64,000 bases of DNA from Actinomycetota bacterium (GTDB lineage: Bacteria > Actinomycetota > Acidimicrobiia > Acidimicrobiales > Poriferisodalaceae), in the NCBI GenBank assembly GCA_014238065.1, contig JABABU010000027.1, positions 62,001-126,000 of the forward strand, read 5' to 3'. The position numbers and the translations under genes were made by a program. Positions 29,129-46,756 of this stretch are shown piece by piece (the first letter of the stretch is position 1; every line of letters starts with the position of its first letter). A model generated the notes under the pieces. That model did not search any database. It was not told the DNA's origin and saw nothing but the letters and a program-made list of their open reading frames with translations.

Positions 29129-31078
29129 GTGACTCGGTTCGGAACATTCGCCCTCGGGCTACATGCCTCGACGGTGGCCATGGTCATCTCCATCCTCGTT
29201 GTCCACCGATCTGACATCAGTGGCGATCTGGGCGCGGTCGACGGCCTCGTTGCCGAGTCGGCCATCTTCGCGGCGGCTGCGCTCGCGGCGGCGGTTGCCG
29301 TTGGTCGCCTTCGTGACATCGTGCCGGCCGGTCTCACCATCTTTGTCGGCGCGATCGTTTCGACCGTCGGCCTCACGCTCATGGCGTGGACCATCGACAT
29401 CACGTGGTTCACCTCGGGAGGCGTCATGGTGGCTGCCGGGGCAGCTCCTGGGCTCGTACTCACGCGAATCCTGATAACGACACACGGCACACGGCACACT
29501 CATCGTCGGCTCGCCGATCGCGTGTGGGCCTCGATCGCACTCGGGGCCGCGACTCCGCTCATCATGGACATGTTGTTCGACATCGCGCCGAGCACGGCGC
29601 TGTGGACGGCGATGGGCGTCTCGTGCCTCGCCGCTGCTTCGCTCGCCCCTCTTGCCCTGTTGCACGACGAAGACGATCATTGCGCCAATTCGATTCGCGC
29701 CTTCGACACCCCATGGATCGTCCGTAGCCGGCTGCTGGCGGTCTCCGCAGGAGGTGCGATCTTCGGCGGTGGGGAGGCGGCCCGACGTCTACTCGAAGGT
29801 GAGTGGCAGCGCAGCCCGACGCAGACCGCTGCCGTGCTCGCCGCGGGACCCCTGGCCGCGGCTGCGGCCACGACACTCGGCCGCTGGTACCACCGCCTCG
29901 ACGACCTCAACGGAAGTCAGCGAGCCGATGCTGTCGGACTTCAGGTGTTCGTGGCAGGGACGGCGGCCACGATCGGCGGACTGTCGTTCACCTACGTCGG
30001 ACTCGTTGTCTCGTGGGCCATTGCGGGAGCTGCCCTTGGGCTCGCGGTTGGCGGCATCGATGCAGCAACGAACTCGTCAGTTCACCCCAGCATGCGACGC
30101 AAGGTCGCAGTTCGGCAGTTGATCGACATTGCCGTCGGGGGCACATTCGCCTCTGTCCTGAACGCGCACGTCATCGGTTCGTGGTCGGATCAATGGAAGA
30201 TCGCCCTCACCGGTGTTCCTCTCGCGCTCGCAGGGTGGGCGATCAGACGGTTCGCAGACCCGGCCAGAACTGAAGACACCGACGAGATGATCGCAACCGC
30301 GACGTCGGTACCGCGCCGAGTACTCAGTTTCGACAACTCACCGATCCCTGCACTCGTAGTCGACTCCCTGGACGTTGCCTACGGATCTGTCCAGGTGCTG
30401 TTCAGTGTCGGTCTCACTGTCGAGGAAGGCCAGATCGTAGCCCTGCTCGGCACCAACGGCGCCGGCAAGACAACTCTGCTGCGAGCTATCTCAGGGCTCG
30501 AGCCCACCATCGGCGGACGAATCATCTACGAGGGACTCGACATCACCCGAACCAGACCGACGTGGCGCGTTGGCATGGGTCTCCATCAGATCGTCGGAGG
30601 GAGCGCAGTTGCCGGTGACCTCACCGTCGCCGAGAATCTACGACTGTTCACCCACCTCGTTCCAGCCGCGGAGCGATCGGCTGCTCTGTCCGAGGCCTAC
30701 GAACTGTTTCCGAGGCTCGCCGAGCGACGCGGTCAGGTGAGCCTGACCTTGTCTGGCGGCGAGAAACAGATGCTCGCCCTCTCGAAGGCGCTGATGCACC
30801 GGCCGCGACTTCTACTGATCGACGAGTTCTCGTTGGGATTGGCACCGACCATCATCGCCGAACTACTTCCCGTCGTTCGTCAGATCGCGGACCGAGGCAC
30901 TGCGATTCTGCTCGTCGAACAATCGGTGAACCTCGCGCTATCGATCGCCGACCATGCCTTCGTCATGGAGAAAGGCTCGATCGGCCACCACGGGCCGGCG
31001 GCCGAGCTGAGGAACCAACCGGATCTCCTCCGGGCCGCTTATCTCGAGGGCCTCCACACGATCGTGGCCGACCACTGA
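29129..31078 (+). CDS. Fusion of MFS-like membrane domain and LivF-type ABC ATPase
   Basis: A 649-residue protein. Residues ~1-385 hold ten or more membrane helices of MFS-like character. Residues ~405-649 form a LivF-type ATPase with Walker A GTNGAGKTT (~440), signature LSGGEKQ (~540), Walker B LLLIDE (~560) and a LVEQSV switch where other ABC proteins have His. It should power import with the permease-ATPase fusion that follows; the stop/start overlap is ATGA. The membrane domain's purpose is unclear: it could be an extra channel or a membrane anchor. Confidence 0.83.
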   Translation: MTRFGTFALGLHASTVAMVISILVVHRSDISGDLGAVDGLVAESAIFAAAALAAAVAVGRLRDIVPAGLTIFVGAIVSTVGLTLMAWTIDITWFTSGGVMVAAGAAPGLVLTRILITTHGTRHTHRRLADRVWASIALGAATPLIMDMLFDIAPSTALWTAMGVSCLAAASLAPLALLHDEDDHCANSIRAFDTPWIVRSRLLAVSAGGAIFGGGEAARRLLEGEWQRSPTQTAAVLAAGPLAAAAATTLGRWYHRLDDLNGSQRADAVGLQVFVAGTAATIGGLSFTYVGLVVSWAIAGAALGLAVGGIDAATNSSVHPSMRRKVAVRQLIDIAVGGTFASVLNAHVIGSWSDQWKIALTGVPLALAGWAIRRFADPARTEDTDEMIATATSVPRRVLSFDNSPIPALVVDSLDVAYGSVQVLFSVGLTVEEGQIVALLGTNGAGKTTLLRAISGLEPTIGGRIIYEGLDITRTRPTWRVGMGLHQIVGGSAVAGDLTVAENLRLFTHLVPAAERSAALSEAYELFPRLAERRGQVSLTLSGGEKQMLALSKALMHRPRLLLIDEFSLGLAPTIIAELLPVVRQIADRGTAILLVEQSVNLALSIADHAFVMEKGSIGHHGPAAELRNQPDLLRAAYLEGLHTIVADH

Positions 31079-33840
31079 TGGGCAGTTATGACGTCTCGTC
31101 GCCACTGGTTCTTCTTGGCCTGATCTTCGGGACCGGCTACTCGCTGCTCGGCATCGGGCTTGTGCTCGCCTATCGATCCAGCGGGTTCATCAACTTCGCG
31201 CACGGGGCGACGGGACTGTTCACGGCTTCAATGATGTCGGTTGTCGTCCGCGACTACGGGGTGCCGTACTGGTTGGGGTTCCTCGGCGCCTTGGTTGCAG
31301 CCGCATGCATCGGGGCCGCGCTCGAAGTGGTGATCGTGAGAAAGCTGAGCGGTTCGCCGAAAGTGTTGGCCATGGTCGCAACGCTCGGCACAGGCCAGGC
31401 ATTGCTACTACTCGCGCTGTCGTTCTCAGGCGGCGGACTCGGAGGCGGCAATTTTCCTCAGCCACCGTGGTTCCCGGATTTCGACCTTGATGCATACGTC
31501 TCACCTTCTGCGACAGCGCTCCTCGTGCTCTCGCCGATTGTGGTCGTCGGGCTCTACCAGTTCCTGCAGCGGTCGAGATTCGGACTGGCGATCCGGGGCG
31601 CAGCATCCAACCCCGACGCGGCCACACTCGCCGGCGCAGATCCGCACTACCTGGCGATGCTCTCATGGGCGCTGGCTGGAGCCATCGCCGCGTTTGCCGC
31701 CATGCTCATCATCCCGAATCAGAGTACCGTCACGCCAGACACGCTCGGCCCCGACTTCATCATCCGAGGTCTCGCCGTCGCCGCGCTCGCTCGATTCGCG
31801 AACCTTCCCGTTGCCCTTGCTGCCGGTCTCGGAATTGGTGTCGCAGAGCAGCTCATCGCAACGAATCCCGACAGTTCCGGCTATTTCGAAGTGCTGCTCT
31901 TCGCTCTGATCTTGGTTGGCGTAGCACGCACGTTCTCTTCGCCACGCGAAGAAACCGAACCGTGGACCACAGTCTCGACAGCAGACCGTCTGCCCGATGA
32001 ATACCTCGACATCTGGCTCATCAGACACCTCGGCTGGGTTGCGGCAGCGGTCGCGTTGGTCGCCGCGATCCTGATACCGATCTGGGCCAGCAACGAGTCG
32101 GCTTTCATCTGCTCGACGGTGCTCGCGTTCGCGATCATCGCGATGTCAATCAGCTTCCTCACAGGACTTGGTGGACAGCTCTCCCTCGGCCAGGTCGGGT
32201 TCGCAGCCATCGGGGCGGTGGCAGCGGTCGAGGTCTCGTCGCGTTTCGGCACACTCATCGGCGCCATGCTGGTGTCAGCGGTCGTGGGCGCTGCTGTTTC
32301 GGCGGCGGTAGGGTTACCGGCTCTCCGGGTCAGGGGGTTGCTCCTCGCCGTGGCGACGCTGGCGTTTGCTCTCGTCACGTCTTCGTGGCTCCTCCGTCAG
32401 GACTGGGCATTCGGCGCTGGTGCTTCGACGCGGCCCATCACTTTGCTCGGGTCCGAACTCGAGACGTCACGCGGGTACTACTACGTGGCGCTCGGATCGT
32501 TCGTGGTCGTCGCCACGCTTGCGACCATCGTTCGCCAATCGTCCATCGGCCGTCACCTCATCGCTGTTCGCGACAACGACAACGCTGCCCGCGTGTTTCA
32601 GATCGCGAGTCGGCGAACGTTGCTCGGTACCTACGCCCTCGCTGGAGCCATCGCCGGGGTCGGCGGCTCAGTGCTGGCGTTCAACAACACGTTCGTGAGT
32701 CGGGCGATATTCACGCCGTCGGCCAGTGTCGACGTCGTTGCGATCGCCGTCGTGGGCGGACTTGGCGAACTCATGGGCCCACTGCTGGGTGCCGCATACC
32801 TGATCGGTATCCCTGAGTTCTTCGACCTCGAACTCTCGGCCCTCGCCGGTCTCAATGCAGCCTGGCTGATTCTGATCCTCGAGCAACCGCGGGGACTGGT
32901 GGGCCTCTTCTCCTCGACGAAGCGCCATGTCATCGATGCCATCGCCCGGCTGCACGGCGTCACGGTCACCGATGACATCGAACCGGTTGCCACTCCCGCC
33001 ACCTCAGCGCTCTCCTTGCAACCGGCGTCAGCACCCCAAGCCGACCAGTCCGGTCAGCCGCTTCTCGAGGTCATCACACTCACCCGAAACTTCGGCGATC
33101 TGATGGCAGTCGACAACGTTACGTTCAAGGTTGCAAGGGGCGAGACACTCGGACTCATCGGTCCGAACGGGGCGGGAAAGACGACGTTGTTCGAGCTCGT
33201 CAGTGGCTTCATCAAGCCCGACGTAGGACGCGTCATCTACGACGGTGCCGACATCACCTCGCTCTCCCCAGAGGCACGTAGCCGACTCGGACTGGTGCGA
33301 TCGTTCCAGAACGCCACGCTGTTCCCTACGATGACCCCCCTTCAGGTCGCGATGATGGCCACCCAAGCGGCCACTCGTCGGCGGCTGGTGCTGGCCGGCG
33401 GGGCCGCTGAGCGCTCGATGGAGAAGTCGGCGACGGAGACACTCGCTGCCTTTGGCCTCGGCGAGATCGCCGACGAGCCGATCTCACAGCTCCCGACAGG
33501 GACAAGACGTCTCGTCGAGCTGGCCGCGAACGTTGCGCTGCAGCCCCGACTCCTCTTGCTCGATGAACCCTCAGCCGGCATCGCGCAGGCCGAGACGGAG
33601 GCACTTGGTGCTGCCATCATGTCGATTCGAGACAGCTTCGACATTACGATCGTCGTGATCGAGCACGACATGCCTCTCCTGACGTCGATCTGTGAACGCA
33701 TGATCGCGCTCGAGGTCGGCGCCATCATCGCCGAAGGCACTCCTCACGAGATCCAGCGCCATGAGGCGGTCGTCAGGAGCTACCTGGGTACCGACACCGA
33801 CGCGATCGCAAAGTCAGGCCCCGTCGACCTCCGCGAATAG
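31078..33840 (+). CDS. LivH-LivM-LivG fusion: ABC permease/permease/ATPase
   Basis: A 920-residue single-chain core of a LIV-type importer. Residues ~1-290 are LivH-like (LAYRSSGFINFAHGATGLF). Residues ~320-605 are LivM-like (FLTGLGGQLSLGQVGFAAIG, AVRDNDNAARVFQI). Residues ~660-905 are LivG-like, with Walker A GPNGAGKTT (~695) and Walker B LLLLDEPSAG. The LivG signature is degenerate (LPTGTRRLVEL in place of LSGGQ), so the LivF domain of the preceding protein may supply the canonical site. The end overlaps the convergent SDR gene by 27 bases. Confidence 0.88.
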   Translation: MGSYDVSSPLVLLGLIFGTGYSLLGIGLVLAYRSSGFINFAHGATGLFTASMMSVVVRDYGVPYWLGFLGALVAAACIGAALEVVIVRKLSGSPKVLAMVATLGTGQALLLLALSFSGGGLGGGNFPQPPWFPDFDLDAYVSPSATALLVLSPIVVVGLYQFLQRSRFGLAIRGAASNPDAATLAGADPHYLAMLSWALAGAIAAFAAMLIIPNQSTVTPDTLGPDFIIRGLAVAALARFANLPVALAAGLGIGVAEQLIATNPDSSGYFEVLLFALILVGVARTFSSPREETEPWTTVSTADRLPDEYLDIWLIRHLGWVAAAVALVAAILIPIWASNESAFICSTVLAFAIIAMSISFLTGLGGQLSLGQVGFAAIGAVAAVEVSSRFGTLIGAMLVSAVVGAAVSAAVGLPALRVRGLLLAVATLAFALVTSSWLLRQDWAFGAGASTRPITLLGSELETSRGYYYVALGSFVVVATLATIVRQSSIGRHLIAVRDNDNAARVFQIASRRTLLGTYALAGAIAGVGGSVLAFNNTFVSRAIFTPSASVDVVAIAVVGGLGELMGPLLGAAYLIGIPEFFDLELSALAGLNAAWLILILEQPRGLVGLFSSTKRHVIDAIARLHGVTVTDDIEPVATPATSALSLQPASAPQADQSGQPLLEVITLTRNFGDLMAVDNVTFKVARGETLGLIGPNGAGKTTLFELVSGFIKPDVGRVIYDGADITSLSPEARSRLGLVRSFQNATLFPTMTPLQVAMMATQAATRRRLVLAGGAAERSMEKSATETLAAFGLGEIADEPISQLPTGTRRLVELAANVALQPRLLLLDEPSAGIAQAETEALGAAIMSIRDSFDITIVVIEHDMPLLTSICERMIALEVGAIIAEGTPHEIQRHEAVVRSYLGTDTDAIAKSGPVDLRE

Positions 33841-34620
33841 ATCGCGCTTGTTGAACGCCGCTGTCATGAATCGGCGGCTCGCCTTGCGGCGTGTCAGCCA
33901 AGCAATCCGTGCCCCGGAAGTGTCGGCGGCGAGCACCTGGTCGGCGAGCCAAGGAGTCACGGTGTGGACGTCATCGCCCAGGATGTTGAAGATCTTTTTC
34001 GCCTTCTCCCATTGCTCGGACGTGAGGTCGTAATCGCCGACCAAAAGGTCCGTCACGACGATTCCTGGCGAGAGCGTGCATATCTGGACCGGCGTGTCGG
34101 CCGTGTCCTTTCGCAGTGCCTTCTGCATGTAACGAACTGCCCGCTTGGTTGAGCCGTATGCGGCCATTCCTGCCTGCGTCGCACCGTCGGAACCGAAGCC
34201 TTCGGTATTCCACAGCTGACCGTGTCCCTGATCGAGCATGTTGGTGATCGCAACCTTCGATGCGAGAAGTGCACCGGTGATGTTGGTGCCCACGACGGCT
34301 TCGATCGCCTCGTCGCTCTGCTTCCACAGCGGTTTACGCTCGATCGACATGCCGGCGTTGTTGATCCACACATCGACGCCACCGAACTTCTCCGAAGCGA
34401 CGTCCCAGACCCCTTGGAGCTGCGACGAGTCGGTCACATGACAGACCGAACCGGCGACACGACCTTCGCCGTAGTAGCCGCCGAGTTCGGTGACAGCAGC
34501 CGCCACCGACGACTCAGACCGCCCGGTGATTGTGACCTGGCACTCTCGTTTCAGAAACTCACGGGCCAGCCCGTTGCCGATTCCTCGGGTTCCGCCCGTG
34601 ATGACGACTCGTTTGCTCAT
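33814..34620 (-). CDS. Short-chain dehydrogenase resembling chlorophyll b reductase (NYC1/NOL)
   Basis: A 268-residue classical SDR: TGGTRGIG (8-15) binds NAD(P), NNAG (87-90), catalytic Tyr155 and Lys159 in AAYGSTKR. Beyond the generic motifs, it shows features I associate with plant NYC1/NOL: LAREFLK, VWINNAG, GFGSDG before the active Tyr, LSPGIVVTDLL, then a FNIL segment and a WLTRRKASRRF-like tail. Those enzymes reduce chlorophyll b to 7-hydroxymethyl chlorophyll a. The match is from memory, not a search. It is the last gene of a leftward operon with a serine hydrolase and a Dabb protein. Confidence 0.75.
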   Translation of the reverse strand: MSKRVVITGGTRGIGNGLAREFLKRECQVTITGRSESSVAAAVTELGGYYGEGRVAGSVCHVTDSSQLQGVWDVASEKFGGVDVWINNAGMSIERKPLWKQSDEAIEAVVGTNITGALLASKVAITNMLDQGHGQLWNTEGFGSDGATQAGMAAYGSTKRAVRYMQKALRKDTADTPVQICTLSPGIVVTDLLVGDYDLTSEQWEKAKKIFNILGDDVHTVTPWLADQVLAADTSGARIAWLTRRKASRRFMTAAFNKRDLFAEVDGA

Positions 34621-34641: not shown

Positions 34642-35559
34642 TCAGCGCCTTGTGAAATTCTGTACGCCGCCGTGATCGGCGAACCCATCGAGGGTCTGAC
34701 CGTCCACGAACGTACAGATGATGTCGGCGAGCAGATCGCGCGCCTCGACATCGTCACCGCGCAGATCAGGCTCGAGAAATGCTCGTCCGGTGGTCTCGTC
34801 GATCGGGTCACACATGGTGAAGTGGTTGCCGTCGACCAACTCGATGAGATACGAGTCGTCGTCGTGTCGGTCAATTGCCTCATCGAAGGTTCGGCGTACC
34901 GGATTGTGTTCGCCTTCGTCGGATCGGTAGCGGTCGCGACTGGCGGCGATGACTGCGTCGGACCCACCACATACAAGCAGCACCGGAACCGCCGAGGGCA
35001 CCGCAACCACCGCAGTTTCACCGTGGCCGAGCGCCGTGGCCGTCATCGTGTGAGCGCCGTAGACGGCGACTGATCTGAGCCCGGGAATCCATGCGGGATT
35101 GGTGTTGTGCAAGGCAACTGTTCCGCCTGCCGAGTGTCCGACCAGCGACACTGCTGCGAGATCGCACACGTCAGATCCGACGTCAGCAAGTGCAACGAGG
35201 AGAGGATTGATGGCCGACGCTGAGCATCGTGTTCCGACGACGCCGGGAGCGAGGGCCATCATGTCGAGACCTGGTGTTATGCCAACGCCGGCAGGTCCGA
35301 GTTCACCGATGGTCGAGTAGGTCACAGCACAGTTGCCGGCCTCGACGAGCCGAACCGCCAGCCATCGGTACCCGTCGGGGGCAACGTTGATGCCGGGCAT
35401 GATCAACACTGTCGGACGAGGAGGCTCATCGATGGGTGGCACTTCACCTGTGAGCCGTGCCTCTTCCATTCGTTCGTCGTCCGCGGCGTAAAAGAGCGTG
35501 CCGACTCCTGCCTCGGACTCCGGAGCGTCGAACGCGAAGTGGCGGCCTCTGACGATCAC
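34642..35559 (-). CDS. Serine alpha/beta hydrolase (chlorophyllase-like architecture)
   Basis: A 305-residue hydrolase. TVLIMPGINVAPDGYRWLA provides the oxyanion region, VSLVGHSAGGTVAL holds the nucleophile Ser143, LLVCGGSD a likely acid-strand Asp, and ELVDGNHFTMCD the catalytic His. GTG 35559 was chosen as the start because it overlaps the Dabb stop (GTGA). It precedes the NYC1-like SDR by 21 bases. Removal of phytol or another ester from a tetrapyrrole is an inference from neighbours; a general lipase or dienelactone hydrolase is the alternative. Confidence 0.8.
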   Translation of the reverse strand: MIVRGRHFAFDAPESEAGVGTLFYAADDERMEEARLTGEVPPIDEPPRPTVLIMPGINVAPDGYRWLAVRLVEAGNCAVTYSTIGELGPAGVGITPGLDMMALAPGVVGTRCSASAINPLLVALADVGSDVCDLAAVSLVGHSAGGTVALHNTNPAWIPGLRSVAVYGAHTMTATALGHGETAVVAVPSAVPVLLVCGGSDAVIAASRDRYRSDEGEHNPVRRTFDEAIDRHDDDSYLIELVDGNHFTMCDPIDETTGRAFLEPDLRGDDVEARDLLADIICTFVDGQTLDGFADHGGVQNFTRR

Positions 35560-35843
35560 GAAGCGGCGGTGTAATCGATGGTCGTCGCCGCTGACATCAG
35601 GTCGAGAACAACCGCCCTGACTTCGAGGTGGACCGCATCTGATTCGTAGGCGTGGTAGGCCTCGAGATCTGTCCACGTCGTCGTGAGCGCAATGTCGGCC
35701 GAGTAGGCGCCGGCCAACTCGTTGACATCGACCCGCAGGTCGATCATCCCGTCGACCTTGCCCCTCATCGACTCCATGACGTCTTGGCAGCGTTTGGAAG
35801 TCCGAGGATCGGCGAGGCTGACGAGAACGGTGTGTACATGCAT
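35556..35843 (-). CDS. Dabb (A/B-barrel) domain protein
   Basis: A 95-residue single-domain protein starting MHVHTVLVSLADPRTS, with GMIDLRVDVNELAG, ALTTTWTDLEAYHAYESDAVH and a conserved His-x-E pattern. This is typical of the stress-responsive dimeric A/B-barrel family, which includes EthD-like and heme-degrading relatives. It is first in the leftward operon and shares the divergent region containing operator G. It may bind or process a small hydrophobic intermediate. Confidence 0.78.
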   Translation of the reverse strand: MHVHTVLVSLADPRTSKRCQDVMESMRGKVDGMIDLRVDVNELAGAYSADIALTTTWTDLEAYHAYESDAVHLEVRAVVLDLMSAATTIDYTAAS

Positions 35844-35922: not shown

Positions 35923-36381
35923 GTGAACAGCGTCAACCGCGACTACGGACCCGCCAGCCCCCGCCCATACCAGTGCTTCATGGGTCGATGGGAGGGATTG
36001 TGTAAGAGCTTCACGCCTGATGGCCAGTTCCTCGATGCCTCAGCGGTCCACATGGACGTCTATTGGCTCGACGAGCAGACGTGGCACCTCCATGAGCACT
36101 TCGAGAACCTCTACGAGGTCGGCGAGACGACCTACGACACTCCGATCTCGGTCGACGGAAAGCGGTGCTGGGCGACGAGCGACATGATCAACCTGAATGG
36201 CACAGAACTCACGGCCTTCAACTACGTGTTCACGATCGATTCTGCTGTCAGCGGCACCATCGTCTACAACAACCACTACTTCATCGACACCGACACGCGG
36301 CGAATCATCACGCACAAGGTTCGGGACGGCGCCACGCACCTCTTCCAGATCCAGGACTTCGTAAGGATTCAGCGACCATGA
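35923..36381 (+). CDS. Lipocalin-like (GxW) single-domain protein 1
   Basis: A 152-residue protein with one predicted beta-barrel. FMGRWEGLCKSFTPDGQF contains the GxW start motif of calycins. Alternating strands follow (HMDVYWLDEQTWHLHEHFE, AFNYVFTIDS, TIVYNNHYFI). It has no signal peptide, so it is cytoplasmic. Several His/Trp/Tyr residues line the predicted barrel. It heads the rightward operon under operator G. A carrier or enzyme for a tetrapyrrole or similar hydrophobic compound is my inference. Confidence 0.65.
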   Translation: MNSVNRDYGPASPRPYQCFMGRWEGLCKSFTPDGQFLDASAVHMDVYWLDEQTWHLHEHFENLYEVGETTYDTPISVDGKRCWATSDMINLNGTELTAFNYVFTIDSAVSGTIVYNNHYFIDTDTRRIITHKVRDGATHLFQIQDFVRIQRP

Positions 36382-37190
36382 TCGTGCAGAGCAGTTCCCC
36401 TGATGGCACCCACTTCGTCATCGCCATGCAACAGCACACCACGTTCGCTGGACAACTCGCCGCCCACTTCGGCAACGACGACTTCGCGGCCATCGCACCC
36501 GCCGAGCCGATGCAGTTCATCGTCGACAACCACGATGCCGGATGGGCCAACCTCGATACCGAAGCGCCCCAGAGCTCCGAAACCGGTCTTCCCTACAACC
36601 TCACGGCGACACCCTTGCCACAAATCATCAGCACCAGTGCCGGCTCACCGGCACTGAACGAGGAGCACCACCCGTTCTCTGGGATCATCTCGTCGATGCA
36701 CACATACGGGTTGTATACCGGCCGCTACGGACTGTCGGACAAGATCTTCCTCGACGCAATCCCCGCTGACCTTCGGCCAAGCGTCGACGGGATGCTCGCC
36801 GCCGAAAGTGACCGACAGGAGCGTCTCAAGGGCGTGCTGGCCCTCTCTGATCCCGACTATGCCTCGGACGACTTCTTGTTCCACGCATACAAGCAACTGC
36901 AGTTCTTCGACACCCTGTCGCTCTACTTCCACATGACACCGGAGGGCGAACGAGGAGAGGCCGAATTCCTCAACGTTCCACGGTCGGTCGGCGACGACGT
37001 GTCGATCACGGTCACTGAGCTCGGTAACGGTCATTACGATGTGACGCCATTTCCTTTCGACACCGATGGACTCACCGTCGGTACCGAGGGCCGCTATCTC
37101 GCGCCGCAGGAGTCAGGAACACCGCTGCCAGGCGTGCTGGCCACCACTGCTGTCTCCGAACAGGTCGTCACGCTCACCGGCGCTTCATGA
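36378..37190 (+). CDS. DUF3891 family protein
   Basis: A 270-residue protein beginning MIVQSSSPDGTHFVIAMQQH, with HTTFAGQLAAHFG and VDNHDAGW, the His/His-Asp residues of the DUF3891 family, plus HHPFSGIISSMHTYGLYTGRYG. The H...HD pattern suggests a metal-dependent helical (HD-like) fold. Function unknown. It is coupled by ATGA overlaps to lipocalin-like genes on both sides, so it probably acts on the same compound. A hydrolase or de-chelating role would be speculative. Confidence 0.72.
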   Translation: MIVQSSSPDGTHFVIAMQQHTTFAGQLAAHFGNDDFAAIAPAEPMQFIVDNHDAGWANLDTEAPQSSETGLPYNLTATPLPQIISTSAGSPALNEEHHPFSGIISSMHTYGLYTGRYGLSDKIFLDAIPADLRPSVDGMLAAESDRQERLKGVLALSDPDYASDDFLFHAYKQLQFFDTLSLYFHMTPEGERGEAEFLNVPRSVGDDVSITVTELGNGHYDVTPFPFDTDGLTVGTEGRYLAPQESGTPLPGVLATTAVSEQVVTLTGAS

Positions 37191-38116
37191 CCGCGGGCGG
37201 GACAAAGGGCTCCCTTTCCAAGGGCAGTTTCTCCAAGGGAGTCGGCCAGTGGATCGGTGCCGCTGAAGTCTTCGACGGCGACGGCCAGTTCTGCGGACAC
37301 GGACGAGACGAACGCACGGTCGTGGCCGACGACGGCGCGGGAAGCGTGAGCGTCGAAGTCAGCTTCGAGGGGCCCTTCGCACTCGCCGGCAACTACACCA
37401 TCGTCGACGGAGGTGACCACCGGCGTTACGAGGGGCCACTGAATCACGGGTACGCCGAAGTTCTCGGCGATGGCCTCGTCACGGCCAACAACTACTGGCC
37501 TGACCTGGGCCTCTCACAGCGGTTCTTCCTGATGGTGCTACCCGGCAACTCGACACAGCTGTCTCTCGCGCTCATCAGCCGCGGCGACAGAGCCCGCTGG
37601 ACCGTTGCCGGCGAATACCGGCGCCAAGTCGACACAGGAGAGCCAACCCCACTTGCTCATGTGCCGATCGACCCTGGCTCCGTTCGCAACGATGCGACCG
37701 CCGGACGTGGCGAGGTCATGTTTCATCGGGAAGGGCGGTGGGTCGGCGCGCTGACACACCTCGACGGCAACCTCGGCGACCCAAAGAGTGACGACTACAC
37801 CGAAGTCGTAGAGTCGAACGGAGACAGCGTCCACCGCTCGATTCAGGGGAGCCGGTTCGTCGCCGACCACAACTTCATTTCGAACACCGATGGATGGTCG
37901 GAATGGTGTCCGACCGGCGGTGTTGTCGGCAGCGCATCGCTCTGGGGTGGCAGAGCCCGCTCGGGTCAGCTGATCCATCAAGCCAGCGGGCTTCGGGTCT
38001 GGACACGAAACATCACCACACTCGATGGCACGATCAGAGCCGTGGTCGACACCTGGTTCCGTGGCGAGGATCGCATTGGCGCGACGTTCGGCGTGCTGAC
38101 CTTCGAGCCGGCATGA
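37187..38116 (+). CDS. Lipocalin-like (GxW) two-domain protein 2
   Basis: A 309-residue protein with two similar barrels. Domain 1 starts VGQWIGAAEVFDGDG (Trp22); domain 2 starts REGRWVGALTHLDGN. Both have a G-x-W-x-G opening and a DG turn, as in the neighbouring proteins. Domain 1 also has YEGPLNHGYAEV and NNYWPDLGLSQRF, paralleling YLGPD and HYYSP in the related protein at 39582. No signal peptide or enzyme motif is present. Overlaps upstream and downstream genes by ATGA. Confidence 0.65.
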   Translation: MTAGGTKGSLSKGSFSKGVGQWIGAAEVFDGDGQFCGHGRDERTVVADDGAGSVSVEVSFEGPFALAGNYTIVDGGDHRRYEGPLNHGYAEVLGDGLVTANNYWPDLGLSQRFFLMVLPGNSTQLSLALISRGDRARWTVAGEYRRQVDTGEPTPLAHVPIDPGSVRNDATAGRGEVMFHREGRWVGALTHLDGNLGDPKSDDYTEVVESNGDSVHRSIQGSRFVADHNFISNTDGWSEWCPTGGVVGSASLWGGRARSGQLIHQASGLRVWTRNITTLDGTIRAVVDTWFRGEDRIGATFGVLTFEPA

Positions 38117-38790
38117 GCGATGCGACGCCCCGGGACGACTTCGATGGCGCGTGGATGGTCAAGGAATACGTCCACGATCCTGGCGGTGAGCTGATCGGAA
38201 CAGTTTCACAGCGACGCCTCGTCGAACCAGCTGACACCGATCGGTTTCGCGTGACACAGCACTGCTCCGTCTCTGACGAACTCCGCGATCACCCGATGAT
38301 TCGGTTCGAGGGCACGTGGATGTTCGACCTCGCAATCGAAGGAGCACAGCGCCACTACCTCGGCCCTGATGTCATCGGTATGGGAACCCAGTGGGCTCCT
38401 GGAGCAATGACTGGCGTCGGCCAGTGGCCCAGGTTCGGTCACGATTTCGAGTCCTATGCCGTCCTCATCGCCCCAGATCGGCAGCTGACCGGTGGCTTCT
38501 TCTCGACCGCCGGCCAGTCATTCGTTGACATCATCGGCATAGCCGTGCCAGAGGTACTCGGCGTCGAACCGCAGCTGGAACTCACCGCAGGAGCCCCCGA
38601 TCTCGACCGCGACGCCTGGCCCGTTCAGCGGGCCGTTGGGCCCATGCGCATCGGAACAGCACAAGCGACCCCGAACCTACGCCGTCGATGCTGGACGATG
38701 CATGACGTGCTCGGGGGTTCAACCATCACGATCGTCGAGACCGTTGATGCCGGTGGCGTGTCGACCACCATCACCGCTCAGCCGAACTGA
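38113..38790 (+). CDS. Lipocalin-like (GxW) protein 3
   Basis: A 225-residue protein with an opening FDGAWMVKEYVHDPGGEL (GxW) and a strand pattern RHYLGPDVIGMGTQWAPGAM, which matches the YLGPD element of the related protein at 39582. The C-terminal part may be a partial second barrel (RRRCWTMHDVLGGSTITIVE). It ends the rightward operon, one base before the convergent VOC gene. Function inferred only by association. Confidence 0.62.
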   Translation: MSDATPRDDFDGAWMVKEYVHDPGGELIGTVSQRRLVEPADTDRFRVTQHCSVSDELRDHPMIRFEGTWMFDLAIEGAQRHYLGPDVIGMGTQWAPGAMTGVGQWPRFGHDFESYAVLIAPDRQLTGGFFSTAGQSFVDIIGIAVPEVLGVEPQLELTAGAPDLDRDAWPVQRAVGPMRIGTAQATPNLRRRCWTMHDVLGGSTITIVETVDAGGVSTTITAQPN

Positions 38791-38791
38791 C

Positions 38792-39589
38792 TCATCTCGC
38801 CGGCCTGACATCGATCACCACTCCGCCTGGCGAGACCATCCTGTGCGGAGACGCGTCCCGAACGGTGAACCCGACCGCCTGAATCCCTGCCAGATCAGCG
38901 CCTGCAAAGTCGGCACCATCGTGACCGACGAACCTCAACAGCTCGAACCGGATGGGGTCGTTGGCAGCGTTTGCGAACATCACCATCTCGAGTTCGATCG
39001 TGGTATCCGGCAGACACATGAACGCGGCCACTTCTGAGGAGCCGAAAGCCAAGTCCATCCCACGGGTTGCGCCGCGGTCTTCCCACCATGGCGCTTCGGC
39101 AGCTCGATCTGCGACTGCCCACACCAGGCTGTGGATCTGCGAGTGAAGTTCGTCGGCGTTGTCGTCCAGGAGGCTCGCTCGACGACTCGGACTTTCGATG
39201 AGCACGACCGGGACGTGGTCGGGACCCCAGATCGTGACTTGACGCATCGAGAACGGTCCGATGTCGATCGTGGCGATAGGGCCGGGATCGCCCCCGGCGA
39301 CCACGGCTCGCTCGACGCTCTCCTCCATCGCAGTCGTGTAGATGTCGAGACCGCGGGGCCCAAGGTCGTAGCCGGTGAGTCGAGATCCCTCCTTCGCCTC
39401 GCTCAACACCAACTCGGTCGGGTGCCCAGAACCGCGGCCCATCGTGACTGAGTCGGCGTCTGCGGCTTCGACGCCGAAGTCGAACGCCCCGAAGAAGCGG
39501 ACCGTGGCGTCGATGTTGGTGGTCCCGATCACCACATGGCTGGCCGACCCGAACACGGCTGAAGAGCCGACTGGCCACTGCTCAGTCAT
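38792..39589 (-). CDS. VOC (glyoxalase/bleomycin-resistance fold) protein
   Basis: A 265-residue protein of two paired beta-alpha-beta-beta-beta modules: ASHVVIGTTNIDATVRFFGA opens the first, GVVIDVRPA closes the last. The second half contains CLPDTTIELEMVMFAN. Possible metal ligands include His18 in ASHVV and a Glu in ELEMVMF. The VOC fold covers extradiol dioxygenases, glyoxalases and epimerases. It is last in the leftward operon with the Rieske oxygenase and RCC-reductase-like genes, overlapping its predecessor by 8 bases. Confidence 0.78.
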   Translation of the reverse strand: MTEQWPVGSSAVFGSASHVVIGTTNIDATVRFFGAFDFGVEAADADSVTMGRGSGHPTELVLSEAKEGSRLTGYDLGPRGLDIYTTAMEESVERAVVAGGDPGPIATIDIGPFSMRQVTIWGPDHVPVVLIESPSRRASLLDDNADELHSQIHSLVWAVADRAAEAPWWEDRGATRGMDLAFGSSEVAAFMCLPDTTIELEMVMFANAANDPIRFELLRFVGHDGADFAGADLAGIQAVGFTVRDASPHRMVSPGGVVIDVRPAR

Positions 39590-40517
39590 CCGCCGCCCAG
39601 GTCAGCGGGCCGAACACGAAGTCGGTGAGCTGATCACCCCACGAGATCTTCCATGCAACGGCCATCGTGTGATCGCGGTCGATGAAGAACTCGCGACCCT
39701 TCACTTTCCATGGCTCCTTGCAGTGATGTTGGGTCGTGTACAACGCCCTGCCGTACCCAATGGCATTGCCGAACAGGTCGGGCCCCTCGTAGGTGTGGCG
39801 ATTCGAGTTGCGGGTACGCGTGTAGGTGAACCTCCGATCGATGGATCCACCAAGCGTCCAGGTGTGGGTCGCCCGAACGAGGTCGATCGGTTCGTGGCGT
39901 ATGGACACCTCGACTTCACCCTTGCGCTCCTGATCGGGGCCATAGACCTCGCACACGCCTTTCCAACTTCCAGCGGTGCGGTCTGGCAGCACGTGCGGGA
40001 GGGTGGCCATCTCGCGTTCGGCCTCGAGAAACGCGTCGATGCGGGCCTTGGTGTCCGGATTCGTGTCGTAATCGTGAGCGTTCTGGTACACGCCGTTGAA
40101 GACCGAGAACAGTGTCGGGCCCTCGTACAGCAGCGAGGAGTACACCTGGGTGATCCCGTCGGGAAGGATCTGGTTGAGCGTGTTGAGATCGGCTCGCCAC
40201 GCCGGCGAGTAGTAATGCGAGTCGACGATGGAGCCGTACGGATGGCCACCACCGAAGAAGTCGGGGCCGAGGTAGATGCGATTCGCACCCTGGTCGTCGA
40301 CACCGAACGCGAAGTTGTTGATCTCGAATCGGTTACGCAGCGGACCCGTGTTCATGAAGTTGCAGTGCATGTAATAGGTGGTGATGCCGTCCTCAAACAC
40401 TGAGGACCGGTTGACCTTGTTGAAGCCGGTGTGGCCTCCTTCTGCGTCGAACACTGACGGAATGCCGTACCACTCACCGGTGATTCGCTGTTGCCATTCG
40501 CTGACTTCTTCGCTCAC
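39582..40517 (-). CDS. Lipocalin-like (GxW) two-domain protein 4
   Basis: A 311-residue protein with two barrels. Domain 1 opens ITGEWYGIPSVFDAEGGHTG and contains YLGPDFFGGGHPYG and HYYSPAWRADL. Domain 2 opens TAGSWKGVCEVYGPDQER and contains YEGPDLFGNAIGYGRAL. Both repeats share GxW-x-G and a Y-x-G-P-D-x-F-G strand, so a duplication is likely. No signal peptide. It lies directly after an RCC-reductase-like gene in the operator D operon, linking this domain family to the oxygenase genes. Confidence 0.68.
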   Translation of the reverse strand: MSEEVSEWQQRITGEWYGIPSVFDAEGGHTGFNKVNRSSVFEDGITTYYMHCNFMNTGPLRNRFEINNFAFGVDDQGANRIYLGPDFFGGGHPYGSIVDSHYYSPAWRADLNTLNQILPDGITQVYSSLLYEGPTLFSVFNGVYQNAHDYDTNPDTKARIDAFLEAEREMATLPHVLPDRTAGSWKGVCEVYGPDQERKGEVEVSIRHEPIDLVRATHTWTLGGSIDRRFTYTRTRNSNRHTYEGPDLFGNAIGYGRALYTTQHHCKEPWKVKGREFFIDRDHTMAVAWKISWGDQLTDFVFGPLTWAADD

Positions 40518-40518
40518 A

Positions 40519-41232
40519 TCAATTCCCCTCGTCGATGAGACTGGCTTGGATTTCGGCGCTGACCTCTACACCGAGAAGACGGTCGACTTGGGCCCACACC
40601 GGATCGACGTCTGGATTGAAGATCGAACCGCGATTCGCCCGGTCTCTTGCCTCGAGCTGAGCGTCGGTGACACCAGCCATTGCGCTCACCGGAACGCCTT
40701 CGGCAACGAGGGAGAGCCAGTGATCGCGATAGGCATCAACGGTCGCGTCGATCGACGCGAAGGCATCTGCGTCGGCACGGTGAGCCAGCATCCACGCCGA
40801 CATCAACTGCCACTGCCGAGGTGAGAGGTGCGCAGGCGTGAGGCCTTCGAGTTCCAGCGCATCGTCGTGGGCCTCGGTGAGGGGCACGAAGCAGTGATCG
40901 AGGTAGGCCAAGTTCGCGCCAGGGTCGACTCTCGGAATCAAGTCGAGGTGGAACGCATAGTGCTGGCCGGCGTGCACAGAGTCGAGGGTGAAGTGGGGGA
41001 CGGCGCTGTGACGACCGGTGAAGGCGAACATCATGTGGCTGTCGAGGCCGAACGCCTCGACCGTCATCGACACGTACACGACGCGAGCGTCGATTCCCTC
41101 CAGAACTCGATGGACACCGACGTCAGATCCGTCCAACGCCGAGCTCAGCTGACGGTCGAGCGACGTCTCGAGGCCGAGTGTCCGCGCCACGTGGTCGATC
41201 GTTCGGCCGCACAGATTGCCGGGAAGACTCAT
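40519..41232 (-). CDS. Red chlorophyll catabolite reductase-like (FDBR superfamily) protein A
   Basis: A 237-residue protein. VPHFTLDSVHAGQHYAFHL (78-96) followed by DLIPRVDPGANLAYLDHCF resembles the central P-x-F-x-x-[ED] strand and LDL-x-x-R-x-D-L-x-x-x-YL core of plant red chlorophyll catabolite reductase and the bilin reductase superfamily. Asp84 falls where the plant enzyme has a substrate-binding Glu. The C-terminus NPDVDPVWAQVDRLLG also fits. The start is ATG 41232 (ATGA overlap with the oxygenase). The assignment is from remembered family sequences; a structure-based search would test it. Confidence 0.68.
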   Translation of the reverse strand: MSLPGNLCGRTIDHVARTLGLETSLDRQLSSALDGSDVGVHRVLEGIDARVVYVSMTVEAFGLDSHMMFAFTGRHSAVPHFTLDSVHAGQHYAFHLDLIPRVDPGANLAYLDHCFVPLTEAHDDALELEGLTPAHLSPRQWQLMSAWMLAHRADADAFASIDATVDAYRDHWLSLVAEGVPVSAMAGVTDAQLEARDRANRGSIFNPDVDPVWAQVDRLLGVEVSAEIQASLIDEGN

Positions 41233-42371
41233 GTGTCCATCTCTTCGACGGTCGGAAACACCCATGCGTTGGCAAGCTCAGGATCGGAGATTCTCGCGGG
41301 CGAGGCGATCACTGCTGCTGAACGGCGGGCTTGTTCGTCGGTCGGCGTCGGAAGACCCCAGCCCTTGTCGAGTTGAGCTTGACGCCATCGGCGGTAGGCC
41401 AGCTGGATGCCGTCGGATTTCACGTGCAGCTCGGCCGACAGATCGAATGGCAGCAACTCAGGTCGCTGCGACTCGACCGTCGGCTGGTCTTCGTTGAAGA
41501 TCTTCAGCGTGCGTCGAATCGAGTCCTTGTCGGCCCATCCACCGGTGAAGAAGGTCCGGAGCATGATGAACTTCGACGTGGTGTGCGACTCGTCGCGCGG
41601 AACAGCCGCGGTGAAAATACGAATCTCGCCGAGAGGCAACCGGACGATCAACATCGACACGTTCGGGGGATAGAAGCCCGTCGTCGTGGTCACCGGCTTG
41701 CGTTCTTTGTTCTTGCCGATCACCGCCCAGATGCCGGAAGGCACAGGTGGGTGGAGGTCGACCGACGCGGTCACCACTGCCAGATGGTCACCGATGGTGA
41801 GTTCTTCGATCTCGAAGTCGGCGATCTCTGGTTCGTCGGGGTTGCCGAACGAGCCGGCGTGGACGAAGGGCGTGTGCGAGATATCGACGGCGTTCTCAAG
41901 GACTCGGTCGTAGTTGGCGACCCAGTCGAAGTCGCCTTCCACGGCGCGGTAGCCATCGGCTTTCGCGTCGAGCGCCAGATCGAGACCCTCCAACTCCGGC
42001 ATCGGTGGACGCTGGTCTTCGGCAAGGTCGCCGAGAAACACCCACACGAAGCCATAGCGCTCGATACATGGGTAGGTGTCGACCCTGGCCTTTTTCGGAA
42101 TGGCGAGCCCTTCACGATTGGCAGGGATAGACACGCACATGCCGGAACTGTCGTACATCCACCCGTGGTACGGACACTGCACGCAGTTGCTGATGACCGT
42201 GCCACCGGCAAGCGAGCCGCCGCGATGGACACACAGGTCGGACTGCGCGTTGACGGTGCCGTCCTTCGAACGCCACAACACGAGATCGTGGCCGTGAACG
42301 GCGACGGCAACTGGTTTGTCGGCAACGACCGACCCGAACTCGATCGCATACCAGTGGTTCTTGATCAACAT
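41229..42371 (-). CDS. Rieske non-heme iron oxygenase
   Basis: A 380-residue oxygenase alpha subunit. The Rieske centre is Cys47-x-His49 and Cys66-x-x-His69 (DLCVHRGG, CVQCPYHGW). The mononuclear iron site is NAVDISHTPFVH with Asp163 as bridge, His166 and His171. The group includes phthalate/vanillate-type and PaO-type oxygenases. Plant PaO opens the chlorin ring of pheophorbide a; the C-terminal CxxC of PaO is not seen here. It stands between two RCC-reductase-like genes, the same functional pair as in plants. Start ATG 42371 lies 7 bases after the upstream gene. Confidence 0.87.
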   Translation of the reverse strand: MLIKNHWYAIEFGSVVADKPVAVAVHGHDLVLWRSKDGTVNAQSDLCVHRGGSLAGGTVISNCVQCPYHGWMYDSSGMCVSIPANREGLAIPKKARVDTYPCIERYGFVWVFLGDLAEDQRPPMPELEGLDLALDAKADGYRAVEGDFDWVANYDRVLENAVDISHTPFVHAGSFGNPDEPEIADFEIEELTIGDHLAVVTASVDLHPPVPSGIWAVIGKNKERKPVTTTTGFYPPNVSMLIVRLPLGEIRIFTAAVPRDESHTTSKFIMLRTFFTGGWADKDSIRRTLKIFNEDQPTVESQRPELLPFDLSAELHVKSDGIQLAYRRWRQAQLDKGWGLPTPTDEQARRSAAVIASPARISDPELANAWVFPTVEEMDT

Positions 42372-42378
42372 CGTGATG

Positions 42379-43191
42379 TCAGGTTGGTCGAGGGAGTTGA
42401 CGATCGCCACCCCAAAGGGCGGCGACGAGACGGCTGGTGAGGTTGTCACCGAAGAACCGAACGGCCATGACGTTGGCCGGATCGCGCTCAGCGATGTTTC
42501 TACGACGCGTGAGATCGTCGGCGGCCAGCTGGACGCGCCGCTCGGCCGGAACCGGCTCTGCTTCGTCGACGAATGCAAGCCATTGGTCGACCCGCGTATG
42601 CGCGAGCTGGGAGATCTGGTTCAGGCGCTCTTCGCTGTACGTGCGTCCGGGGGTGGTGAAACAGATTGCTGTTTCAGACAGCGCTTGACGAACGTAGAGC
42701 GCTTTCGATGTGAACGGCGCAAGACCCTCATCGGCACGTAACTCGAGGAAGTCGTCGTTCATTGGTTCGAAGTACTTGTCGAGCGAGTCGGTGTCAAGCA
42801 TGAGATCGGATCTGGCGTTGAAGTCGATGTAGAACCACAGGTCGGGCAGAGTTCCCCAGGCAATGCCGAGATGCGGCACGTCGATCTGGGGTCCGAGCCA
42901 CGCCGTGAGGTGCATGTTTGTGAAACCGAGGGTCGGGTTGCCAATCCACGAGTGGACGAGCCAGTCGATCTCCGGGCCGGAGTAGGCGGCCAACCGGCCC
43001 GCCGGATACTCGTTCTCACCGCGGTACGACTCGAGATCGTCGGTGCTCGGGTCGCGGGTGAGTTCGAACCTGGCTCGGATCTTTGTCATGAGTTCTTCGG
43101 TGATCGACCACAACCGCTCGAAGGTGGCCGAAGAGTCAGTTGGTGCACGCTTGTCGAAGATTTCCTCGACGCCTTGAAGTGTCTCTTTCAT
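42379..43191 (-). CDS. Red chlorophyll catabolite reductase-like (FDBR superfamily) protein B
   Basis: A 270-residue protein. Parts I match to plant RCC reductase: LWFYIDFNARSDLML (119-132), a DKYFEPMNDDFLELR helix, PFTSKALYVRQALSETAI (159-176), WLAFVDEAE, and the ending AVRFFGDNLTSRLVAALWG (plant: FGEEVSSRVVHAI). RCC reductase reduces the linear tetrapyrrole made by PaO, with ferredoxin as donor and no cofactor. ATG 43191 has GAGGAG 4 bases upstream; an ATG at 43227 is less likely. It is first in the leftward operon below operator D. The similarity is by inspection. Confidence 0.7.
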   Translation of the reverse strand: MKETLQGVEEIFDKRAPTDSSATFERLWSITEELMTKIRARFELTRDPSTDDLESYRGENEYPAGRLAAYSGPEIDWLVHSWIGNPTLGFTNMHLTAWLGPQIDVPHLGIAWGTLPDLWFYIDFNARSDLMLDTDSLDKYFEPMNDDFLELRADEGLAPFTSKALYVRQALSETAICFTTPGRTYSEERLNQISQLAHTRVDQWLAFVDEAEPVPAERRVQLAADDLTRRRNIAERDPANVMAVRFFGDNLTSRLVAALWGGDRQLPRPT

Positions 43192-43265
43192 CGTCTCCTC
43201 ATGGCCTTCGAGTCCAGTGTTCAACAATCCCAGTATCCAAAAAACCAGTACCCGACAAACTCAGT

Positions 43266-43290
43266 GTTCCGAGGAGCGGAACGATGTTTC
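43266..43290 (+). promoter_or_regulatory. IclR-type operator site D
   Basis: GTTCC-N7-GGAAC-N3-GTTTC in the 155-base divergent region between the RCC-reductase/Rieske operon and the CitE-like gene. Oriented rightward. A further GAAAC 9 bases after the last half-site extends the symmetry. TAGCAT at 43307-43312 is a plausible -10 for the rightward gene. Confidence 0.72.
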
Positions 43291-43346
43291 GTTGGGTGAG
43301 AAACGTTAGCATCGGCCCTCGAACAGGGGTCAGTCGAGCAGGGAAG

Positions 43347-44138
43347 ATGACGAGAAGCAGTCTCTATGTGCCAGGCGATCGGCCCGCACGCTTCGACAAG
43401 GCGCTGGCATCGGGCGCCGACGCCGTCATTCTCGACCTCGAGGACGGTGTTTCAGCCGACAAGAAGACCATCGCTCGGAGCAACGTGTGCTCGTGGCTCG
43501 GCGCCAACGGGACAGCCGCTGCTCTGGTCAGAGTCAACAGCGGAAACACGGGCGACAAGGACATCGAAGCCCTTCGAGCTGTCGGTCTTCCGAGGCTCGT
43601 CGTCCCGAAGGCGACACCAGAGACCTGCGCCATCAAAGGTGCCGTGGTCGTTGCGTTGATCGAAACCGCAGAGGGCGTCGCTCGGATCGACGAGATCGCC
43701 CAGCTGACCCAAGTGAGGCGCATCGCCATCGGCGAGGCCGATCTCGCCGAAGACCTCGGCATGTGGCCATCGCACGACGGCCGAGAGTTCGCAACAATTC
43801 GCGCTCAGATCGTCGTCGCGTCTGCTCACCGAGGCCTCGAGGCGCCGGCTGGACCGGTGCCGACCGACATCGAAGACCTCGAAGCACTCGAAGCGAGTTC
43901 GGATATTCTCCGCAGGACAGGGTTCGGCGGACGCTCGGTGATCCATCCAAGGCAGGTCGAAGTCGTCAACCGGGTATTCGAGCCTTCGACGTCCGAGATC
44001 GAATGGGCGCGCGGGGTCCTCTCGGCAGACCGAGCATCGGGTGGCCAGATCGCTGTCTACGACGGCGGGTTCGTCGACGCCCCGATCGTCGCTCGCGCCC
44101 GCCGGATCCTCGACAGAGTCGGCGAGCCGAACTCGTGA
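43347..44138 (+). CDS. HpcH/HpaI aldolase / citrate lyase beta (CitE-like) protein
   Basis: A 263-residue TIM-barrel lyase. RSSLYVPGDRPARFDKALASG is the typical opening, VILDLEDGVSADKK holds the metal-binding acidic cluster, VALIETAEGVARIDEIA the conserved Glu, AIGEADLAEDLG the second metal site, and GFGGRSVIHPRQVEVVN the CoA/substrate end. Members cleave malyl-, citramalyl- or methylmalyl-CoA-type compounds. The start is ATG 43347 with AGGGAA just upstream. Under operator D, it could split a substituted malyl-CoA at the end of the pathway; stand-alone CitE-like proteins act as such lyases. Confidence 0.86.
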   Translation: MTRSSLYVPGDRPARFDKALASGADAVILDLEDGVSADKKTIARSNVCSWLGANGTAAALVRVNSGNTGDKDIEALRAVGLPRLVVPKATPETCAIKGAVVVALIETAEGVARIDEIAQLTQVRRIAIGEADLAEDLGMWPSHDGREFATIRAQIVVASAHRGLEAPAGPVPTDIEDLEALEASSDILRRTGFGGRSVIHPRQVEVVNRVFEPSTSEIEWARGVLSADRASGGQIAVYDGGFVDAPIVARARRILDRVGEPNS

Positions 44139-44207: not shown

Positions 44208-45770
44208 TCAGCTGACGAGAGGAGCCGAGGCTCTCCATGATCGGCCCCCAACCAGATCGGTGTTTTTCGAAATCTCTCTGGCCAACGCCCGGATCGGGTG
44301 AAGCGAACCCAGTACAGGCCCACCGTCGGGCGAACGAACGCGCTCAGGAGTGTTGATCGTCCCGTCGTACTCGGACGAGCGCTGCGGTGACCAGAGTGAA
44401 TCGAGCGGCGGGTTGAGGATCATCGACGCCACGTCGTGTTCGGAACTCGAGCAGGCGACGAGGCACAACCGATTCTCGGCCGCACGTTCGCGGATGCCCA
44501 AATCACTCTCCCACCAGTTCGTGGGCTCGTATGAGACCAACGCGATGTGGGCTCCCTCGATCGCGGCCAGCCGGAACGCTTCAGGGAAAAGATGATCATC
44601 GCCGACAAAGAGGGCGACCGTACCGAAAGGGCTGTCCCAAAGCGAAAGCTCGCCGGCGAGATCAGCGTCATCAGCGGTGGCCGATGAGCTGTGGATCTGC
44701 CGTTGCTTGTGCACCACGCCTCGGCTCGACCACACGGAGGCGGTCCGGATTCCCCTGTCAACAGCAGTCGACATCAGATAGACACCGTCGGGAATCGCTT
44801 CGGGCGGCGCGACGCCTTCAGCCAGCACCACCAGCTGCACACCGTCGGCCATCGCATCGACAGCCTGCTCGGTCGAGGTGATTGCGGCTACAACGACATC
44901 CTCTGGAACATTGCCGCTGGGAACGTTCGACCGCGACTGTCCAAGCGGCGCGTACAGGGCAGGCCGACGACCAACGAGTCGGCCGTGGTCGACGGCGCCG
45001 AGATCGACATCAGCCCACACCACTGCCTCACCTGTTCGTGAGGCCTTGGCCAGAATCGTGCCGTCTGGCCCGACGATCTGGCTCTCGCCAGCACCATCGA
45101 GCGCTGTCCGCGGAATCCCGAGCGCTTCACTGAAGACATCGACTTGCTCTACAGGCAGGAGCGGACCGACCTTGTTCGCGGCGACCACGAACACGCCGTT
45201 CTCGACAGCGCGGACAGGAATGTGCAGGGCTGCCTCGTCCAACGCAAACGAGTTGAGGCTGTTCGTGAGCAGCCGTGCGCCTCGCACCGCGTAGCTGCGT
45301 GGCGTCTCAAACGTCACACCGTCCATGCATGCGTACAGCCCGATCGGACCGAATCGAGTCTGGGCCAGGTCGTTGACGCAGTCTCCGCCGACGAGGTGGG
45401 CACGCTCATTGCCCATCAACGTCTGCTTGGGAACGGCTGCAATGACCGTGCCCAGGTCATCGATCAACACGCTGGTGACCGTCACCTCGTCGTCGCGCGG
45501 GGTGGTAACGGTGACGGCAACATGGAGCCCTCCCGCACGCGCTCTTCTTGCGATCGAGCCGAGCCATTCGCCATCCAGCGAGAGGGCGACAGCTCTACAG
45601 TGATCCCGATCGCGGTACACCGAGATGTGATTCGAGAACTCTGGAAGAACCAGGAGATCGACCTCAGACGCGATGGCGTTGTCGATCAACCGAAGACAGC
45701 TGGCGAGGTTCTCGTCGAGATCCTGCGTCGCGGCGAACTGCCCTGCCGCGACACGAAGTCGATCGATCAC
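44208..45770 (-). CDS. Tandem nitrilase-superfamily protein (second domain degenerate)
   Basis: A 520-residue protein. Residues ~1-280 form an intact carbon-nitrogen hydrolase domain with the Glu44-Lys115-Cys148 triad (LVLPEFS, VPKQTLMG, GLYACMDG). Residues ~290-510 repeat the fold (VQLVVLAEGVAPPE, VHKQRQ, TVALFVGDDHLFPEAF) but the nucleophile Cys is Gly. Double nitrilase domains usually hydrolyse amides or carbamoyl groups. It overlaps iclR (GTGA) and is probably co-transcribed with it. Its role could be deamidation of a pathway intermediate. Confidence 0.8.
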   Translation of the reverse strand: MIDRLRVAAGQFAATQDLDENLASCLRLIDNAIASEVDLLVLPEFSNHISVYRDRDHCRAVALSLDGEWLGSIARRARAGGLHVAVTVTTPRDDEVTVTSVLIDDLGTVIAAVPKQTLMGNERAHLVGGDCVNDLAQTRFGPIGLYACMDGVTFETPRSYAVRGARLLTNSLNSFALDEAALHIPVRAVENGVFVVAANKVGPLLPVEQVDVFSEALGIPRTALDGAGESQIVGPDGTILAKASRTGEAVVWADVDLGAVDHGRLVGRRPALYAPLGQSRSNVPSGNVPEDVVVAAITSTEQAVDAMADGVQLVVLAEGVAPPEAIPDGVYLMSTAVDRGIRTASVWSSRGVVHKQRQIHSSSATADDADLAGELSLWDSPFGTVALFVGDDHLFPEAFRLAAIEGAHIALVSYEPTNWWESDLGIRERAAENRLCLVACSSSEHDVASMILNPPLDSLWSPQRSSEYDGTINTPERVRSPDGGPVLGSLHPIRALAREISKNTDLVGGRSWRASAPLVS

Positions 45771-46631: not shown

Positions 46632-46699
46632 GACCGTTTGGCAACGCCAGGTCACCGGTGATTGCGGCATCGGTGTCGACAGGTCAGACTGCACAATAT

Positions 46700-46724
46700 G
46701 TTCCACTCACGGAAACGCTGTTCC
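46700..46724 (+). promoter_or_regulatory. IclR-type operator site F
   Basis: GTTCC-N7-GAAAC-N3-GTTCC, oriented toward the CoA-transferase operon, start codon 32 bases downstream. TATGTT (46698-46703) overlaps its left edge and could be the -10, which would make the site a repressor block. Confidence 0.68.
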
Positions 46725-46756
46725 GCTCGGCCGACCATCGGGGCCCGAGAGCGCTC

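Follow-up and report, generated by a model that had tools for sequence, protein, structure and literature searches.

A tandem two-barrel protein encoded in an actinobacterial genome, here called D, belongs to a family of GxW domain proteins, has a predicted calycin/lipocalin fold, and co-occurs obligately with a red chlorophyll catabolite reductase family protein (RCCR), a divergent RCCR paralogue (R2) and a Rieske oxygenase. The gene cluster, which is conserved in soil and marine actinobacteria, resembles the plant system for dismantling chlorophyll, and the double-barrel protein present in every copy of it probably holds or processes pigment fragments. The specific hypothesis that we tentatively favour, at slightly less than an even chance, is that the genes make up an island dedicated to the catabolism of chlorophyll-type tetrapyrroles in non-phototrophic actinobacteria, in which D, and by homology the related proteins B and C, would bind hydrophobic, phototoxic intermediates.

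The window analysed is a stretch of 64,000 nt from a 3.9 Mb genome, whose nearest named relatives are Acidimicrobiales/Acidimicrobiia MAGs. The genes around D are as follows.

33814..34620, minus strand: SDR, a short-chain dehydrogenase (PF00106, E 3e-37); core member of the cluster
34642..35559, minus strand: HYD, alpha/beta-hydrolase-like, with invariant GHSAGG, Asp240 and His285; core member in soil actinobacteria
35556..35843, minus strand: Dabb-domain protein (PF07876, E 5e-9)
35923..36381, plus strand: A, a single GxW domain, 152 aa; candidate family member, with 16 relatives keeping it at 74-80% identity
36378..37190, plus strand: DUF3891 protein (PF13030, E 5.8e-33); member of the putative A-B-C operon, conserved as part of the block
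37187..38116, plus strand: B, two GxW domains; homologous to D along its full length
38113..38790, plus strand: C, one GxW domain; homologue of D1 and B1
38792..39589, minus strand: VOC, glyoxalase-superfamily-like, with a weak Glyoxalase_6 match; found in a minority of loci
39582..40517, minus strand: D, tandem two-barrel GxW protein (predicted); member of every cluster
40519..41232, minus strand: R2, divergent RCCR paralogue by sequence; the ORF starts at 41265, with a probable ATG at 41232
41229..42371, minus strand: Rieske oxygenase with a VanA_C domain; ATG at 42371
42379..43227, minus strand: RCCR, red chlorophyll catabolite reductase family (PF06405, 55.2 bits against a gathering score of 24.9; PDB 3agb)
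43242..44138, plus strand: HpcH/HpaI lyase, citramalyl-CoA-lyase (RipC)-like
44208..45770, minus strand: nitrilase-superfamily hydrolase (PF00795, E 6e-35); core member

Minus-strand SDR, HYD and Dabb genes lie to the left of A, and minus-strand VOC, D, R2, Rieske and RCCR genes to the right of C. The genes A, DUF3891, B and C are all on the plus strand and overlap by 4 bases at each junction (36378-36381, 37187-37190 and 38113-38116), which suggests that they form one translationally coupled operon. The convergent junction described in an earlier note on this DNA lies where the 3′ ends of C and VOC meet, at 38790/38792.

That note had described six copies of one undescribed, lipocalin-like GxW domain in four genes. 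All six GxW openings are present, one in A, two in B, one in C and two in D, and the Y-x-G-P-D strand reported for several of the domains is found in C, D1 and D2, with the variant YEGPL in B1. The proposal that the six are copies of a single domain held for five of them. In profile-profile comparisons of single domains, D1 paired with B1 (97.8%, E 1e-12), D2 with B2 (96.9%, E 1.5e-10) and B1 with C1 (95.4%, E 2e-8), and further pairs were D2-B1 (91.9%), D1-D2 (83%) and D1-C1 (80%), so that each of D1, D2, B1, B2 and C1 has at least one strong pair linking it to the family; control families from the same loci reached at most 1.4% (E ≥ 0.036). The full-length comparison of B with D gave 98.7% (E 2e-16). 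The domain of A shares the opening motif only, its best comparison being with B1 (9.2%, E 0.0035), and the number of proven copies was, therefore, reduced to five.

Whether the domain is undescribed depends on the level of comparison. No Pfam or NCBIfam model matches at threshold: B, C and D are without a family in these collections, and A has chance-level matches only. A search of PDB sequences with the profiles of D and A gave nothing or noise, and a plasmid search with D gave no match. Below the gathering score, DUF3598 (PF12204), in the form of its DUF3598_N model, matches one of 24 D members (best E 0.018) and four of 16 A members (best E 0.054), and no B or C homologue. The two-barrel architecture, in contrast, is that of already solved structures.

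The AlphaFold2 model of D, built with 24 homologues, is confident (pLDDT 91.3, pTM 0.88) and consists of two modules of about ten strands each, with strands in residues 14-146 and 183-309 and a helix at 154-170. A Foldseek search with this model placed BFA1 of Arabidopsis (5yvf, E 4e-9) first, followed by the DUF3598 protein Npun_R4044 of Nostoc punctiforme (2o62, E 2e-8), both far ahead of the rest. These two proteins match the tandem architecture across both domains of D (TM 0.55 for BFA1 and 0.61/0.69 for 2o62), although identity is only 9-10% with BFA1 and about 10% with 2o62, and 2o62 was not matched in the PDB profile search. The third tier consists of nitrobindin and lipocalins (3wje, 2a13, 2xst and 4imn; prob 0.99-1.0), in which a single domain overlaps one barrel of D at E about 0.01 (0.005-0.015), values that are not significant. 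D is, on the basis of its model, a calycin/lipocalin-superfamily protein of two barrels joined by a helix, and its fold is a known one, the solved structures that resemble it most being those of 2o62 and BFA1. With these two leading the Foldseek list, and with the sub-threshold DUF3598_N matches, D counts either as distantly related to the DUF3598 two-barrel proteins or as their structural twin. By homology to D, B and C are predicted to be barrels as well. The lipocalin-like fold was thus borne out for D but not for A, whose model is poor (pLDDT 57.6) and whose Foldseek list is barrel-like with no entry at E ≤ 0.001. No evident signal peptide was found on reading the D sequence.

The genomic distribution of D provides the second line of evidence. 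When GTDB contigs were searched with D as the query, 30 loci were identified, and R2, Rieske and RCCR adjoin D in all 30, so that the reported proximity of GxW genes to RCCR-like and Rieske genes extends to each of these loci. In the Catellatospora family, 28 of 201 genomes carry D and exactly those 28 carry RCCR, the two genes lying within about 4 kb of one another (P 7e-35). Among 248 genomes of the window's order, D is present in 11 and RCCR in 10, and all 10 RCCR genomes carry D (P 5e-17); both P values treat genomes as independent and ignore shared ancestry. In the one D genome without RCCR (G259), D lies on a truncated contig of 3.5 kb that also bears C, R2 and a partial Rieske gene. Samples of the phylum (397 genomes) and the class (247) contained one further RCCR genome (G513), with D in the same gene run. 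No exception to the D-RCCR linkage was seen in the genome samples examined, and the association appeared exclusive. The earlier note had named two outcomes that would refute it, models lacking a closed barrel and a distribution independent of RCCR-like and Rieske genes; neither check, made with the D model and with these genome samples, refuted it, and its interpretation is partly supported. HYD, SDR and nitrilase usually accompany the four linked genes, and ten soil-actinobacterial loci (L034-L036, L048-L054) share the order nitrilase-RCCR-HYD-Rieske-R2-D-SDR. The A-DUF3891-B-C set is kept or lost as a block and is present in 17 of the 30 loci and in the window; many D loci are without A, B and C, and D itself is retained throughout even where other genes have dropped out. 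The carriers include the cultured soil genera Mumia, Catellatospora and Nonomuraea. One contig labelled Rhodospirillaceae ARS27 (L008) bears an acidimicrobial-type cluster with a D protein 79% identical, possibly a mis-binned MAG or a transfer.

The co-occurrence argues for a shared pathway but does not itself indicate the substrate. Of the roles that D, B and C might play in such a pathway, that of a carrier seems likeliest to us, followed by that of an enzyme and then that of an assembly factor. Some nitrobindins and lipocalins bind haem or bilins; DUF3598 proteins and BFA1 are not known to bind tetrapyrroles, which counts against the favoured reading. One could envision instead that D, and with it B and C, catalyses a Mg-dechelatase-, isomerase- or hydrolase-like step within the barrel. 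Invariant polar and aromatic residues of D outside the fold motif (Tyr102, Tyr103, Trp107, Asp110, Arg257, His264 and Arg275), the constant retention of D where other genes are lost, and the failure of a Staygreen Mg-dechelatase search to find a match in the carriers (a search equally silent in every control genome) would all suit an enzyme. However, none of the close structural matches of D is an enzyme, and we consider this role unlikely. A second alternative is that D assembles or stabilises Rieske, RCCR or R2, as BFA1, the top structural match of D, serves in assembly of the chloroplast ATP synthase. The strict linkage of D to the same three genes is in keeping with this idea, but the fold and the linkage suit a ligand carrier equally well and additional clients would be required for B and C, which makes an assembly role improbable. 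The reading carried forward here is that D, B and C hold or process tetrapyrrole intermediates, most likely as carriers.

The case for a tetrapyrrole substrate draws on RCCR and R2. Besides passing the Pfam gathering score, RCCR matches plant RCCR structures in a profile comparison (E 1e-16), and by sequence it is a true member of its family. R2 of the window is missed by PF06405 at the cut-off and gives no hit to it, and five of 22 R2 homologues match (best E 1.7e-4), but its profile matches that of RCCR (97.0%, E 1e-10) and plant RCCR (E 0.003), which identifies it at the sequence level as a second, divergent RCCR paralogue. In the alignments, the invariant Asp95 of R2 falls in the column of Glu154, which together with Asp291 we take to be the catalytic acids of plant RCCR, whereas RCCR is gapped there; D249 of RCCR adjoins the presumed Asp291 column. 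This is only a hint, and one that depends on the numbering assumed for Glu154, that RCCR and R2 might share the catalytic work. Mumia has a second RCCR gene, at a locus that is separated from the core by about 20 kb and where separate IclR, MmgE, cyclase, CoA-transferase and lyase genes accompany it (L044, G646:C5:171000-190999).

The Rieske protein is less easily reconciled with chlorophyll. Its domains at E ≤ 0.01 are Rieske and VanA_C only, and the C-terminal domain of pheophorbide a oxygenase, PaO (PF08417), is absent from it. Since its C-terminal domain is VanA_C and its nearest PDB relatives are SxtDIOX, SxtT and NdmA, it is not a PaO-family protein, although it could work like PaO despite belonging to a different family. 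HYD was searched against family models and gave no chlorophyllase or pheophytinase match. A resemblance of the SDR to chlorophyll b reductase (NYC1/NOL) is conceivable but is not claimed here. The Rieske and HYD results, together with the lack of a Staygreen match and the frequent absence of A, B and C, speak against a chlorophyll pathway. An alternative is that the cluster acts on something else, be it haem, a bilin, a corrin or a ring that is not a tetrapyrrole, with the RCCR-family enzymes carrying out a different reaction; the VanA_C type of the Rieske protein and the want of PaO, Staygreen and chlorophyllase matches would be expected if this were so. On the other hand, the homology to RCCR is clear, an oxygenase combined with RCCR is the arrangement of plant chlorophyll breakdown, and the known members of the RCCR/FDBR superfamily all act on bilins (PMC10151467). 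We regard a different substrate as a serious possibility but a less than probable one, and retain the chlorophyll-type reading.

If the steps parallel those of the plant PAO/phyllobilin route, HYD would cleave a phytyl or methyl ester, the Rieske oxygenase would open the macrocycle, and RCCR and R2 would reduce the released bilin. D, B and C would be cytosolic barrels that most likely pass intermediates from Rieske to RCCR/R2, or else catalyse a non-redox step. The nitrilase, cyclase, hydantoinase, CoA-transferase, MmgE/PrpD and citramalyl-CoA-lyase-like proteins might then convert monopyrrole or maleimide fragments to central metabolites. Because photosystem reaction-centre proteins are absent from the carriers tested (a control genome was positive), the pigment would come from outside. 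In its fullest form, the hypothesis is that these actinobacteria encode a complete chlorophyll-mineralising route, from ester cleavage through ring opening and maleimide-type fragments to central metabolites, with new tandem calycin barrels shuttling or converting phototoxic intermediates between a VanA-type Rieske protein and the RCCR pair; this we regard as doubtful, though far from negligible. Which substrate is used, how the steps are ordered and what the barrels bind are our inferences.

The plant pathway and the bacterial cluster have in common an RCCR homologue, a Rieske oxygenase, an alpha/beta-hydrolase and an SDR. The bacterial genes differ in being clustered, in the VanA_C type of the Rieske protein, in the second RCCR paralogue and the barrel proteins, and in that Staygreen was not found. 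The pre-PcyA haem-to-bilin clusters of heterotrophic bacteria likewise place FDBR/RCCR-superfamily enzymes in dedicated clusters, but these act after haem oxygenase and with globins, whereas a Rieske protein, a hydrolase and tandem barrels are found here (PMC10151467).

Few pigments on Earth are as abundant as chlorophyll. In the open-access papers covered by our searches, no bacterial gene cluster that takes the chlorophyll ring apart was described. With candidate genes now named, including those of the cultured genera, the question of bacterial chlorophyll breakdown is directly testable; if the hypothesis is true, it would provide the first pathway context for the DUF3598-like barrel family.

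The genes near the core are consistent with the later steps. They encode citramalyl-CoA-lyase-like, CoA-transferase III, putative cyclase, MmgE/PrpD and hydantoinase A/B proteins and an isochorismatase-family amidase, a set that could serve to hydrolyse lactam or maleimide fragments and to use methylated dicarboxylates. In plants and herbivores, mono- and dipyrrolic products of chlorophyll have been reported (PMC7318184). In G513, the neighbouring catabolic genes are contiguous with RCCR-Rieske-R2-D, and in Mumia several of them lie with the other RCCR at the second locus. Within the window, CoA-transferase III, putative cyclase, MmgE/PrpD, hydantoinase B/A and isochorismatase-family genes stand in a row at 46658-54491, and several of them accompany the core at other loci too; the row looks like imide/lactam and methyl-dicarboxylate catabolism.

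Three further observations concern the surroundings of the core. The second half of the 520-aa nitrilase-superfamily protein (44208-45770) is without a Pfam match and is possibly a degenerate second domain. An Amdase-family gene (PF17645; L034, 12502-13380) near the Catellatospora core possibly encodes a maleate-isomerase-like step. Lastly, a branched-chain-amino-acid-type ABC transporter at 29129-33840, in which two permeases and an ATPase are fused in one 920-aa frame, is conserved near the cluster, and a transporter of the branched-chain type stands beside the cluster in 18 listed loci, a few of which are duplicates.
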